A stretch of 64,000 nucleotides of DNA from Sphingomonas sp. LR60. GTDB taxonomy: Bacteria > Pseudomonadota > Alphaproteobacteria > Sphingomonadales > Sphingomonadaceae. Position numbers and translations under genes: made by a program. The DNA lies in the NCBI RefSeq assembly GCF_036855935.1, contig NZ_JASPFK010000001.1, forward strand, positions 965,501 through 1,029,500, in the 5' to 3' direction. This document shows positions 8,461-28,976 of this stretch, in pieces. Below the pieces are notes generated by a model that made no database searches, had not been told where the DNA came from, and was given only the letters and a program-made list of their open reading frames with translations. Every line of letters starts with the position of its first letter. Position 1 is the stretch's first letter.

Positions 8461-8475
8461 ACATATCAGATAGGA
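8461..8475 (+). promoter_or_regulatory. Proposed GntR operator copy 1 (esterase)
   Basis: ACATATCAGATAGGA fits the TCATAT-N3-ATATGA inverted-repeat pattern with one mismatch in the left half and two in the right. The right half is identical to that of the copy at 24163. It ends 41 bases before the esterase start. It is the weaker type of copy, and regulation is inferred. Confidence 0.4.
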
Positions 8476-8516
8476 TTCGCCGGCCGCGTGACGTGGACCG
8501 GGAACCGGGGAGAGAG

Positions 8517-9710
8517 ATGGCGATGAAAATGGCTTCTGCTATCGCGATGGCGTTTTCGATCGTGGCACCATCGGCTGGGGCTCAGGCGTCCGCACCCGCT
8601 CCCGCGCCCGCGGTCGTCGAGGATTTTAAACCGTCGTCGCTGAACCAGCCGGGCCAGTCCTTTCCGCAGGTGAACTCGCAGGGCTATGTCCGCTTTCGCG
8701 TGCTCGCCCCCGACGCCAAGAGCGTCAAGGTCAGCCTCGGGCTGGGTGGCCGCGGTGGCACCGTGCTGACCAAGGGAGCGGATGGTGCATGGACCGCGAC
8801 GTCGGAGGGGCCGCTCGACGAGGGGTTCCATTATTACCATCTCACCGTAGACGGCGGCACGTTCAACGATCCGGGCACGCTGAACTTCTATGGCTCGACG
8901 CGCTGTGAGAGCGGGATCGAGATCCCGGCGCACGATGCCGACTTCTATGCGCTGAAGGACGTACCGCACGGCCGCGTCGAGCAAATCCTCTTTGCGTCGC
9001 CGAGCACACAGTCGCAGCGCCGTGCCTTCGTCTACACACCGCCCGGCTATGACGCGGCGTCGGGCACGCGCTATCCCGTATTGTATCTCCAGCACGGCTG
9101 GGGCGAGGACGAGACGGCGTGGTCGAATCAGGGCCATGCCAATCTGATCATGGACAATCTGATCGCGGCCGGGAAAACGCGTCCGTTCATCATCGTCATG
9201 ACCTATGGCATGACCAACGACGTGCGTCCCGGCAGCCCGGGCGGCCTTGCCAGTTTCAACATCACGCCGTTCCGCACCGTGCTGATCGACGAAATGATCC
9301 CTTATGTGGACCGCCGGTTTCGGACGATCGCCGACCAGCGGCATCGCGGCATGGCCGGGCTGTCGATGGGCGGGTTCGAAACCAAGCTGATCGCACCGAA
9401 GAACCTCGACACGTTCGGCTATATCGGGCTGCTGAGCGGCGGCACGATCGCGCCGGAGGATGTCGCGGCGGCGCCGGGGTATAAGGACAAGGTGCGGCTG
9501 ACCTTCGTCAGCTACGGTGGTCGCGAGTTGGAGGGCGGCAAGACTCGTGGCTCGCCCGCCCGGCCGAGCACCGATCCCGCCGCGAACGCCGCGGCGCTCA
9601 AGCGCGCCGGGCTCAATAGCGTATTCTATGTCTCTCCCAATACCGGGCACGAGTTCCAGACGTGGCGCCGCAGCCTGTACCAGATGGCACCGCTGCTGTT
9701 CCGCGATTGA
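8517..9710 (+). CDS. Exported carbohydrate esterase, CE1/feruloyl esterase-like
   Basis: 397 residues: signal peptide (residues 1-24), an N-terminal immunoglobulin/CBM48-like domain (about 45-135) and a C-terminal alpha/beta-hydrolase of the esterase D/CE1 type. The nucleophile is Ser283 in GLSMGG; the His is in the C-terminal TGHEFQTWR segment, and an oxyanion-side [11 protein letters not shown] motif is present. Enzymes of this build release feruloyl or acetyl groups from plant polysaccharides, although related ones cut other esters. The start at 8517 follows GGGGAGAG. It may feed substrate to the catabolic genes downstream, because a copy of the shared operator lies just upstream. Confidence 0.85.
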
Positions 9711-10142
9711 TCCCGTTCGGCGCGCCGCCGGGTCGCTCGTTCGGGTGATCGGGCGGCTTTGCGCCGTAACGGAAGCGGGCCGCCGGGGCACGCATGAAAA
9801 TCGCTTCTCAAACGTGTTGACAATGAAGCGGCGAAGTATAGGCTCTGATGGTAACGTTATCTTTTTGTTGGTAGTGTTGGTCCGGAGTGTCTGGCGCGCG
9901 ATAAAGAGAGTGATACCCGATCCGTTCACCGCGGTTTGATGGCTTCCTATGTGGAGCAGTAGAATCGCCAAGTAAGCGACGAATGCTGTTCCATTATGCG
10001 GCCGACAGATGTTTGTCGGGCGTGGTTGGAATAGTGTCAGTCGTCTTTCGGTGTGCCGGGCTCTGCAAGATTCGATGATTACAAGGCGGGCGGCGAAAGA
10101 TCGTCTGCGAAGCAAAGATATAAACAAGGGAGTTAGGGGAAG
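9711..10142. other. Intergenic region, TonB-receptor promoter
   Basis: About 430 bases with no gene. It has a TTGACA hexamer at 9817-9822 with a TATA-containing stretch 14 bases on (poor spacing), and the palindrome TAACGTTA at 9852-9859, which could be a repressor site. No copy of the GntR-type operator was found here. A GGGGA ribosome-binding site precedes the receptor start. Confidence 0.4.
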
Positions 10143-27971: not shown

Positions 27972-27991
27972 CGGCGATGTCCTTTCCGGTG

Positions 27992-28896
27992 TCAGCGAGG
28001 GGGAGCGTGGCGACGTAATCGGCCTTGGAGGCGAGATCGCGCGCGATCCCGATCACCATCAGTTCGAGCGGCGCGTTTCCGGTCGCCCGCAGGCTGCGTT
28101 GCGCGCCGACCTCGATCGGCAAGGCGTCACCACTGCTTAGCGGTGCCCGCTCGTCCGCGACGGTCGCTTCTCCGCTACCGGCCATGACATAGACCATCTC
28201 GCTGATCCCGCGCGCGGCAGCGCCGTCGAGCACGGCACCGGGCGGAATCAGCACATGGTCGACGAAGGCCCAGGGCGTGGCGAATACCTCGGGGCCGAGC
28301 AGGCGGCGCGAGCGGATCGCGCCCGCGGGTTTCAGGTTGGCACGATCGAACCGCACGGCGGCGAATTGCGCGACCGGGTCGACCGCCACCCCTTCGCGCG
28401 CATCGTTCAGGTCGAAATTGTCGTAGCGCTTCGTCTGCCCGACGTTGATGTTCAGCCACTGCACCGGACGGTCGGACGCATTGTAGAGCGCATGAGCGTG
28501 CCCCATCCGGTCAGGCACGGCGGCGGGGCCGACGATCGTCGCGGTGCGGCCGTCGACCGTGAATTGTGCCTCGCCATCGAGGATGACGAACATTTCCTCA
28601 CACTGATGGTGGAAGTGCTGCCCGATGCCGCTGTGCGGCGCGATCACGCCGCGGTGAACGAAGATCAGGTTGGTGGAGAGCGCATCTGCGCCGAGCAGCG
28701 GAGCGAACGACATCGTGCCGGCGCCGTCGTGCACCTTTGCGAGCTGGCGATACCGCGCCGGATCGGTGTGCCCGATCCGTTGCGCCAGTGGCCGCGCCGT
28801 GGGTGTAGGTGCGCCTGGCTGCTGTGCTGCGGCCGCACAAGCCAGCGAAAGCGTCAGCACCGTCGCGCCCCGCGCGACCGACCGAATTGGCTTCAC
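27992..28896 (-). CDS. Exported cupin-domain protein (stop codon lost by frameshift)
   Basis: About 301 residues if repaired. Signal peptide, then two cupin-like barrels: the first holds HFHHQCEEMFVILDGEAQF with the His/Glu metal ligands, the second SEMVYVMAGSGEATV. As given, the frame runs past its end into the neighbouring gene in a meaningless frame. Adding one base to the G run 27999-28003 restores a C-terminus ATLPPR and a TGA at 27994-27992. GTG 28896 is chosen because GGGAGGGAAGC precedes it. It could be an isomerase or dioxygenase-like enzyme of the pathway. Confidence 0.72.
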
Positions 28897-28961
28897 GCTT
28901 CCCTCCCGTCCACGCCGGAATTGACCGGCTTTACGCACGCTTACATCGGCCCTACACAGAA

Positions 28962-28976
28962 TCATATAGGATATAA
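28962..28976 (+). promoter_or_regulatory. Proposed GntR operator copy 5 (divergent cupin / MFS)
   Basis: TCATATAGGATATAA differs from the perfect copy at 14062 by one base. It sits in the 110-base spacer between the divergent cupin and transporter genes. Confidence 0.58.

Follow-up and report, generated by a model that had tools for sequence, protein, structure and literature searches.

Palindromic sites in a Sphingomonas gene cluster as probable operators of an FCD-type GntR regulator with a glutamine in its recognition helix

Introduction

A 64-kb stretch of the Sphingomonas sp. LR60 genome (contig NZ_JASPFK010000001.1 of assembly GCF_036855935.1, positions 965,501 to 1,029,500; here called the window) carries short palindromes in front of genes of an uptake and oxidation cluster, and gntR, a gene for a GntR regulator with an FCD domain, is found among them. 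Does this regulator read the palindromes, and do they join the cluster into one regulon? A first-pass annotation of the window had proposed that five copies of a 15-bp palindrome mark a GntR regulon of about 15 genes. We find that the FCD-type GntR regulator whose gene lies among the sites very probably uses them as operators and would co-control the cluster, most likely by repression. Positions are window coordinates; the whole genome comprises 3.94 Mb.

Palindromic sites in the window

The strongest site, TCATATAGGATATGA (14062-14076, + strand), lies upstream of the amidohydrolase operon. It is indeed the perfect inverted repeat that had been claimed for this position; its two 6-bp arms match perfectly across a 3-nt spacer, and it contains the exact decamer TCATATAGGA. 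The same exact decamer is present in TCATATAGGATATAA (28962-28976, + strand), between the divergent genes cupin1 and mfs2 (the latter for a major facilitator superfamily [MFS] transporter). The site TCATATTGTATAGGA (24163-24177, + strand) lies between the divergent genes caiB, for a class III coenzyme A (CoA)-transferase, and pqq2, for a pyrroloquinoline quinone (PQQ)-dependent dehydrogenase. Upstream of the esterase gene est is ACATATCAGATAGGA (8461-8475, + strand), in which the decamer TCAGATAGGA (8466-8475) has one mismatch to TCNTATANGA, the decamer pattern. The fifth site, ATAAACCCTATATGA (13232-13246, - strand), is upstream of gntR, and its decamer CCCTATATGA (13237-13246) also has one mismatch. 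Against the arms pattern TCATATNNNATATGA, the number of mismatches is 0 at 14062, 1 at both 24163 and 28962, 2 at 8461 and 4 at 13232. At the level of the decamer, TCNTATANGA is present with at most one mismatch in all five sites and exactly in two (14062 and 28962); seven more one-mismatch places occur in the window.

When the window was searched for the full 15-mer TCATATAGGATATGA with up to three mismatches, 8 matches were found, compared with 0.18 expected from dinucleotide shuffles; none of 100 shuffles reached 8. The 8 matches include two places matched on both strands, the shifted register at 14057 and unrelated matches at 3928 and 15599, and they do not include 8461 and 13232. When at most one mismatch is allowed, the whole genome holds the arms pattern in three places, all of them in the window (14062, 24163 and 28962). 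With at most two mismatches there are 26 places, 8461 included, versus 3 for a backward control, and with at most three mismatches 200 versus 69.

The sites were also scored with a weight matrix built from 28 distinct 21-mer sites from relatives, window sites excluded. The relatives are orthologs, and shared descent raises the scores of the window sites. In the window, the ranking was 14062 (34.3), 28962 (29.3), 24163 (28.8) and 8461 (20.1), followed by 14057 (17.4), which is the shifted register of the 14062 site, and 9148 (13.9). Among the 26 genome places with at most two mismatches, which the genome ranking covers, the four cluster sites came out on top and the next scored 17.8. Thus, equally good matches elsewhere, which would have spoken against the motif, were not found among these places. 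In simulations, the score level of 8461 is reached by chance about once per 3.94 Mb, so the support for this site comes partly from conservation. Of the five copies first proposed, four are therefore strong sites. The copy at 13232 is weak as a 15-mer (matrix score, 0.9) and is not significant alone; it is backed by its position only.

Conservation of regulator and sites in relatives

Regulator and motif occur together. In a genus sample of 151 genomes (our own included), proteins with at least 63% identity in the FCD part were taken as GntR orthologs; the next best hit, in genome G008, had 43%. An ortholog was present in 18 of the 151 genomes. The exact motif was found in all 18, versus 4 of the 133 genomes without the ortholog (Fisher test, 8e-20, relatedness ignored). 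CoA-transferase orthologs (at least 84%) are present in exactly the 18 genomes with gntR. Since gntR and the cluster are inseparable in the genus, this co-occurrence alone cannot distinguish GntR from a co-inherited factor. The palindromes could, for example, bind another factor encoded elsewhere, with gntR being a passenger of the cluster. The genus sample, in which gntR never separates from the cluster, fits both readings. Such a factor would also suit the four genomes without the GntR ortholog (G008, G015, G034 and G056), which hold one exact motif each, and the state of the window, where the gntR frame is broken while the operators are intact. G008 also has a regulator of the Gln type described below, and an exact decamer lies directly behind its gene.

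The individual sites are conserved in front of orthologous genes. The amidohydrolase site is kept in 16 genus genomes (own included) and in plasmid pSRL1 of Sphingobium indicum; in G085, no amidohydrolase was found in the stretch examined. The caiB/pqq2 site is also present in 16 genus genomes (own included) and pSRL1, and its spacer is TGT in every row. In G085, caiB adjoins mfs2 and a TGT-type site is located between mfs2 and cupin1; the pieces of G043 show the same order. The cupin1 site is present in 17 genus genomes (own included) and pSRL1. The contig of G037 ends before this site, and in G100 mfs2 was not found beside it. The est site (at most two mismatches) was detected in seven of the eight genus genomes in which est was seen, at the same place in six relatives; G059 (L148) has a weaker form. 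Two further genomes, G308 and G330, which belong to other genera by the grouping used, carry sites in the same layout. The motif is thus present near orthologous clusters in the genus genomes, on pSRL1, and in G308 and G330.

Upstream of gntR, most orthologs have a degenerate site about 210 to 240 bp before the codons of the recognition helix. We compared 21 rows (19 genomes, pSRL1 and the window), and in 20 of them the best place beat at least 291 of 300 single-base shuffles; the exception was G027, with 63 of 300 shuffles as high. In 20 equally cut rows of 120 positions, the place lies at offset 46 to 78, except in G308 (offset 15).

Sites were also found at targets away from gntR. In G100, a separate contig holds the half of the cluster from caiB to a TonB receptor, and the caiB/pqq2 spacer there has an exact site; neither of the two places lies close to the end of its contig. 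In G077 and G038, an ortholog (70%) of tonB1, the TonB-dependent receptor gene of the cluster, is on another contig, with an exact site directly upstream. The motif is therefore not explained by the neighborhood of gntR alone. Taken with ortholog co-occurrence and the conserved promoter sites, these unlinked targets back the idea of one GntR regulon, as far as sequence comparison can.

The arms of the sites change symmetrically, with TCGTATAGGATACGA in G010 and TCCTATAGGATAGGA in G077, G038 and G027, which fits a site read by a symmetric dimer. This observation also bears on the nature of the 15-mers. They are located in transcription-start regions and a 6-bp arm could pair in RNA, so that RNA hairpins or promoter elements could be imagined instead of protein operators. 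Yet the arms consist mostly of A and T and enclose a loop of 3 nt, the sites differ in strand and in distance to the start codons, single sites are located between divergent operons, and the motif accompanies a regulator type. We consider hairpins or promoter elements hardly credible. An RNA element was rejected, based on the symmetric arm changes and the lack of any Rfam match at gathering score in the window.

Three side observations were made in these genomes. In G056, which has no match to the FCD query, TCATATATGA is present in three copies within 1.7 kb (L090:3365, 5019 and 5050). CoA-transferase paralogs (66 to 68%), without an exact motif at these places in the genus-wide listing, were found in five genomes, at G100:C2:12745, G067:C5:234973, G009:C25:36193, G042:C1:1043742 and G037:C52:211569. 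At the unlinked TonB receptor of G077 (L083:9976-13123), the operator adjoins an MFS gene and, as judged by eye, an apparent GH43-type glycosidase gene.

A decamer accompanies many regulators with Gln in the recognition helix

In FadR, residues Thr44, Arg45, Thr46, Thr47, Arg49 and Glu50 belong to the recognition helix, and Arg45 contacts a G (Suvorova et al. 2015, PMC4494728, in the part available). In Atu1419 of Agrobacterium fabrum, an FCD regulator of the VanR group involved in hydroxycinnamate catabolism, the recognition helix reads the half site, and Arg45 reads the essential G at position 3 of the 10-mer (PMC7797058, in the part available). The orthologs studied here differ at this place: all 17 aligned orthologs have the peptide SQTP[VI]REA in the recognition helix, with Gln at the place of FadR Arg45 (position 38 of the helix-turn-helix [HTH] domain).

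We asked whether the motif follows this Gln. The comparison set consisted of 41 FCD loci (11 weaker genus hits and 30 others); L104, which is the Gln-type gene of G008, and L126, which has no HTH, were dropped, leaving 39. At the Arg45 place these have Arg in 36 cases (33 parsed and 3 by eye), Lys in 2 and Ala in 1. The Gln-type set came from an ortholog-alignment scan of named genomes, in which 80 of 140 relatives were kept. Held out from the matrix were 53 of 55 loci (L165-L219), after removal of L168 and L169, the genomes of which had been used for it. All 53 have SQTP, being chosen by such patterns.

A matrix place within 1.5 kb of the regulator gene, defined as scoring above all 40 Markov simulations with at most 1 of 60 column-permuted matrices as high, was present in 33 of the 53 held-out loci versus 1 of the 39 comparison loci. 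The exact decamer TCNTATANGA was present within this distance in 34 of 53 (22 of 34 genus labels) versus none of 39 (Fisher test, 1e-11, relatedness ignored). In the 53 loci, the decamer density per 10 kb was 2.07 close to the regulator, as against 0.09 at greater distance. The canonical core GTATAC was found in 3 of 53 Gln-type and 8 of 39 comparison loci, and it lies inside the decamer in 1 of the 34 Gln-type loci with a decamer. The 15-mer pattern TCATATNNNATATGA was exact in only 3 of 53 held-out loci, suggesting that the decamer is the unit common to distant relatives. The 15-mer, proposed at first sight as a search motif for the genome, is present near orthologous clusters; distant relatives share the decamer inside it. 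It is best seen as a decamer core plus a further half site.

The decamer is also found where the cluster genes are absent. In 24 loci without catabolic genes, in which the gene check gave only 26% aldehyde dehydrogenase and 25 to 32% MFS-type matches, the densities per 10 kb were 1.65 up to 1.5 kb from the regulator gene and 0.08 beyond this distance. Twelve of the 24 have a near decamer, and all 12 are actinobacterial by title. A decamer beside 12 cluster-free Gln-type regulators ties the motif to the GntR protein itself, beyond the gene cluster. In the six Glycomyces loci, 54 bp separate the start of the decamer from the matched coding part of the regulator gene downstream of it; in one of this genus (L197), a few bases lie between the end of the palindrome ATATCCTATAGGATAT and an in-frame ATG of the regulator gene, amid unrelated genes. 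These positions, and the finding that the motif class follows the Gln-type regulator where cluster genes are absent nearby (Glycomyces, Leifsonia, Sinomonas, Herbiconiux and others), argue against a separate factor with gntR as a passenger, which we now regard as quite improbable. GntR itself as the reader of the sites is the explanation we prefer. In the sequences compared, the operator set, its conservation, its co-occurrence with gntR and the coupling of motif class to regulator class are evident.

In 24 of the 34 loci, one decamer or more has complementary bases at its N positions (for example, TCCTATAGGA, TCATATATGA and TCGTATACGA). Among 39 decamers, the N pairs were C-G (13), A-T (11), A-G (7), G-G (4), C-T (2), G-C (1) and G-T (1); C2 and G9 are constant by definition of the pattern. 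In contrast to Atu1419 as described in the available part of PMC7797058, Gln replaces the Arg, and the decamer allows different bases at position 3 (C, A or, rarely, G). We lean toward the view that FCD GntR proteins with SQTP[VI]REA, which occur in Alpha- and Gammaproteobacteria and in Actinobacteria, constitute a DNA-recognition class of their own. In this class, the G-TATA-C core would have become TC-N-TATA-N-GA, with a fixed outer C...G and a variable inner pair (C...G or A...T in most cases), and in the sphingomonad 15-mer a third phased pentamer would be added. Judged from the sequences, the class claim extends this far: the G is no longer fixed and Arg is replaced by Gln. Two simpler ideas were weakened by the recount of bases. 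One was that Gln reads an A at the canonical G place, where the decamer base is C, A or, in few loci, G; the other was a simple flip of the core from G-TATA-C to C-TATA-G.

Promoter layout and predicted regulation

In the alignment of amidohydrolase promoters, inspected by eye, 15 of 17 rows have cTTGACA, followed about 17 to 18 bp on by a TA-containing stretch and then by the operator. G091 and pSRL1 have TTGACG farther upstream. The operator immediately follows the -10 region and covers the position where transcription is expected to start, from which we infer that the protein is a repressor. In the proposed mechanism, a GntR dimer (or a dimer of dimers) would bind the palindromic core TCNTATANGA, which the strong sites extend to the 15-bp palindrome TCATATNNNATATGA. 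Physical binding at the amidohydrolase promoter would repress transcription by blocking RNA polymerase, and a small pathway ligand would release GntR from the operator. The co-controlled set would comprise the esterase, the transporters, the PQQ dehydrogenases and cytochromes, and the route formed by iron-containing alcohol dehydrogenase, aldehyde dehydrogenase, CoA-transferase and enoyl-CoA hydratase. A weak autoregulation of gntR may occur via the 13232 site.

Instead of being a simple repressor, GntR could activate transcription from the sites or compete there with another regulator. The est and gntR promoters are too poorly resolved to place the operator in them, and some FCD regulators are dual. 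The position of the amidohydrolase operator just past the -10 region is, however, typical of repressors. Moreover, the FCD relative Atu1419 is a repressor with its palindrome over the -10 box of the target, according to the available part of PMC7797058. Activation or competition is therefore an unlikely mode, and we retain repression by GntR as the most likely one.

The regulator gene in strain LR60 and points against the proposed control

The gntR gene (13283..14000, + strand, with an inferred TTG start at 13283) had been placed amid the sites by the first-pass annotation. The FCD domain is there (PF07729, E = 4.6e-25; 88.9 bits versus a cut-off of 24.3), but in the window the frame is broken at about 13404 to 13425. 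The frame with the FCD domain opens downstream of 13403, the one with the start codon continues to 13904, and the two do not meet. The break splits the HTH, and the open frame has 198 amino acids in the window versus 243 to 298 in orthologs. The ortholog profile matches solved GntR proteins over profile positions 3 to 207, the winged HTH included. A second break was detected near 21890 in a cytochrome c-like gene, where a single frame of a close relative maps to two window frames. Two frame breaks amid a conserved cluster with intact operators suggest an assembly error or a recent loss.

Several observations weigh against the proposed control. With gntR broken, this strain may no longer have such control if the break is real rather than an assembly error. 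The score of the 13232 site (6.8 in the 13237 register) is far from exceptional, 0.9 being expected about 14 times per 64 kb in simulations, and the caiB/pqq2 site fits the decamer only with one mismatch. In G043, the amidohydrolase ortholog (L092) has no site with at most two mismatches in the stretch examined, and throughout the genus sample gntR is always together with the cluster. Nineteen of the 53 held-out loci lack an exact decamer up to 1.5 kb from the regulator gene; they include Novosphingobium rosa, Mesorhizobium, Shinella, all three Paenibacillus and both deltaproteobacterial loci. Of the 24 cluster-free loci, 12 have no near decamer. Finally, the comparison set is mostly from Sphingomonadales and contains one gene twice (L044 = L102), the Gln-type set is taxonomically broad, and relatedness was not corrected.

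Relation to known regulators and clusters

The FadR-subfamily consensus consists of TKGT/ACMA boxes with a GT...AC core (NyGTNxACNy), and BioR (TTATMKATAA) and NanR are named as not conforming to it (PMC4494728, in the part available). Like the regulons described there, the present system combines a winged HTH with FCD and has palindromic, A/T-rich sites; autoregulation is common in those regulons, and single divergon sites usually serve both operons. Unlike their consensus, none of the five window sites contains GT-N2-4-AC. Since that source lists exceptions, the missing core marks a variant and not exclusion from the FCD subfamily. With Atu1419 the system shares short palindromic operators at promoter elements, the Atu1419 10-mer being ATGTATACAT in the available part of PMC7797058. 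The closest solved sequence, PDB 7xp0 ("Probable transcriptional regulator"), matches the ortholog profile over nearly its full length (E = 1.3e-31), but has Arg at the recognition-helix place (SRGP) and is thus outside the Gln type.

The pSRL1 plasmid of S. indicum B90A (L046; SIDU_RS18000-RS17915) offers the closest parallel to the cluster, with a regulator 72% identical in the FCD part and a similar gene order and operator positions. It carries five sites. It differs in being typed as a mobilizable plasmid and in having extra sites upstream of cupin2 and of another TonB receptor; no esterase was found in the pSRL1 stretch examined. In its gene table, which is incomplete, the entries between GntR and the TonB receptor include no further regulator.

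In the literature searched, which lacked most subscription journals, no relevant paper was found on the operator class, the SQTP peptide or Ancylobacter GntR operators, nor was there one on the pSRL1 cluster or a PQQ/SMP-30/CoA-transferase cluster. The sequence CCTATAGG appears in it within an oligonucleotide used in a Streptomyces study. The regulator family has been described before; as far as this literature goes, the operator class that goes with the Gln-type helix is a new variant.

Genes of the cluster and wider distribution

The regulon probably comprises about 17 genes in seven transcription units with predicted limits: est, gntR, the amidohydrolase operon, ech-caiB, pqq2-cyc3, the cupin1 operon and mfs2-cupin2. 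The co-control proposed at the outset is supported, and the size is revised upward from about 15. By gene order, strong sites precede all of these units except gntR. The est gene (8517..9710, + strand; PF00756, E = 6.5e-18) is followed by tonB1 (10143..13166, + strand; PF00593/PF07715), for which no operator was found within the window. Downstream of gntR, the amidohydrolase operon (+ strand) starts with amh (14093..15493; PF01979). It continues with the genes for MFS transporter 1 (15490..16812; PF07690), the iron-containing alcohol dehydrogenase (16836..18074; PF00465/PF25137), a succinate-semialdehyde-like aldehyde dehydrogenase (18074..19558; PF00171; TIGR01780 with 561.6 bits, under the cut-off of 646.35), PQQ-dependent dehydrogenase 1 (19558..21666; PF01011) and the cytochrome c-like gene with the broken frame (21663..22114), which corresponds in place to an annotated cytochrome c of pSRL1. 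Starts were inferred for amh, MFS transporter 1, the alcohol dehydrogenase and PQQ-dependent dehydrogenase 1.

On the minus strand, the enoyl-CoA hydratase gene ech (22149..22925; PF00378) and caiB (22922..24109; PF02515; start inferred) form the next unit. It diverges from pqq2 (24267..26183, + strand; PF01011; start inferred) and the cytochrome c-like gene cyc3 (26195..26518, + strand), which is 51% identical to the cytochrome c annotated in the corresponding position of pSRL1. The cupin1 operon (- strand) contains cupin1 (27985..28896; PF07883; start at 28896 and end inferred), a small gene (27555..27971) conserved in relatives and without a Pfam match, and an SMP-30/gluconolactonase-like gene (26554..27558; PF08450). 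The small gene carries the working label "nipsnap", which no Pfam match supports. We also noted that the cupin1 frame is open to 27673, past its usual end and into the next gene (27673-28896), perhaps a third frame problem. The last unit consists of mfs2 (29007..30326, + strand; PF07690) and cupin2 (30350..31309, + strand; PF07883; start inferred), orthologs of which adjoin mfs2 in several relatives. In an NCBIfam comparison of ten proteins, no equivalog scored above cut-off among the families listed, and the enoyl-CoA hydratase passed a subfamily model.

If the Gln-type class is real, operators could be predicted from one residue of the recognition helix. The one-residue rule is proposed for a GntR class with sites that a search by the published GT...AC consensus would overlook. 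The decamer and 15-mer would provide a genome-searchable operator for the uptake and oxidation cluster of Sphingomonas, Sphingobium and Altererythrobacter, and in part for those of Ancylobacter, Aurantimonas and Steroidobacter. Perhaps the older target was an alcohol-to-acid-to-CoA route; the PQQ part is found in sphingomonads and Steroidobacter. In the stretches examined, Rhodobacter-type loci have the Gln-type regulator with the iron-containing alcohol dehydrogenase and the aldehyde dehydrogenase only. In Ancylobacter, the Gln-type regulator is accompanied by these two enzymes and by a CoA-transferase, an enoyl-CoA hydratase and a tripartite tricarboxylate transporter.

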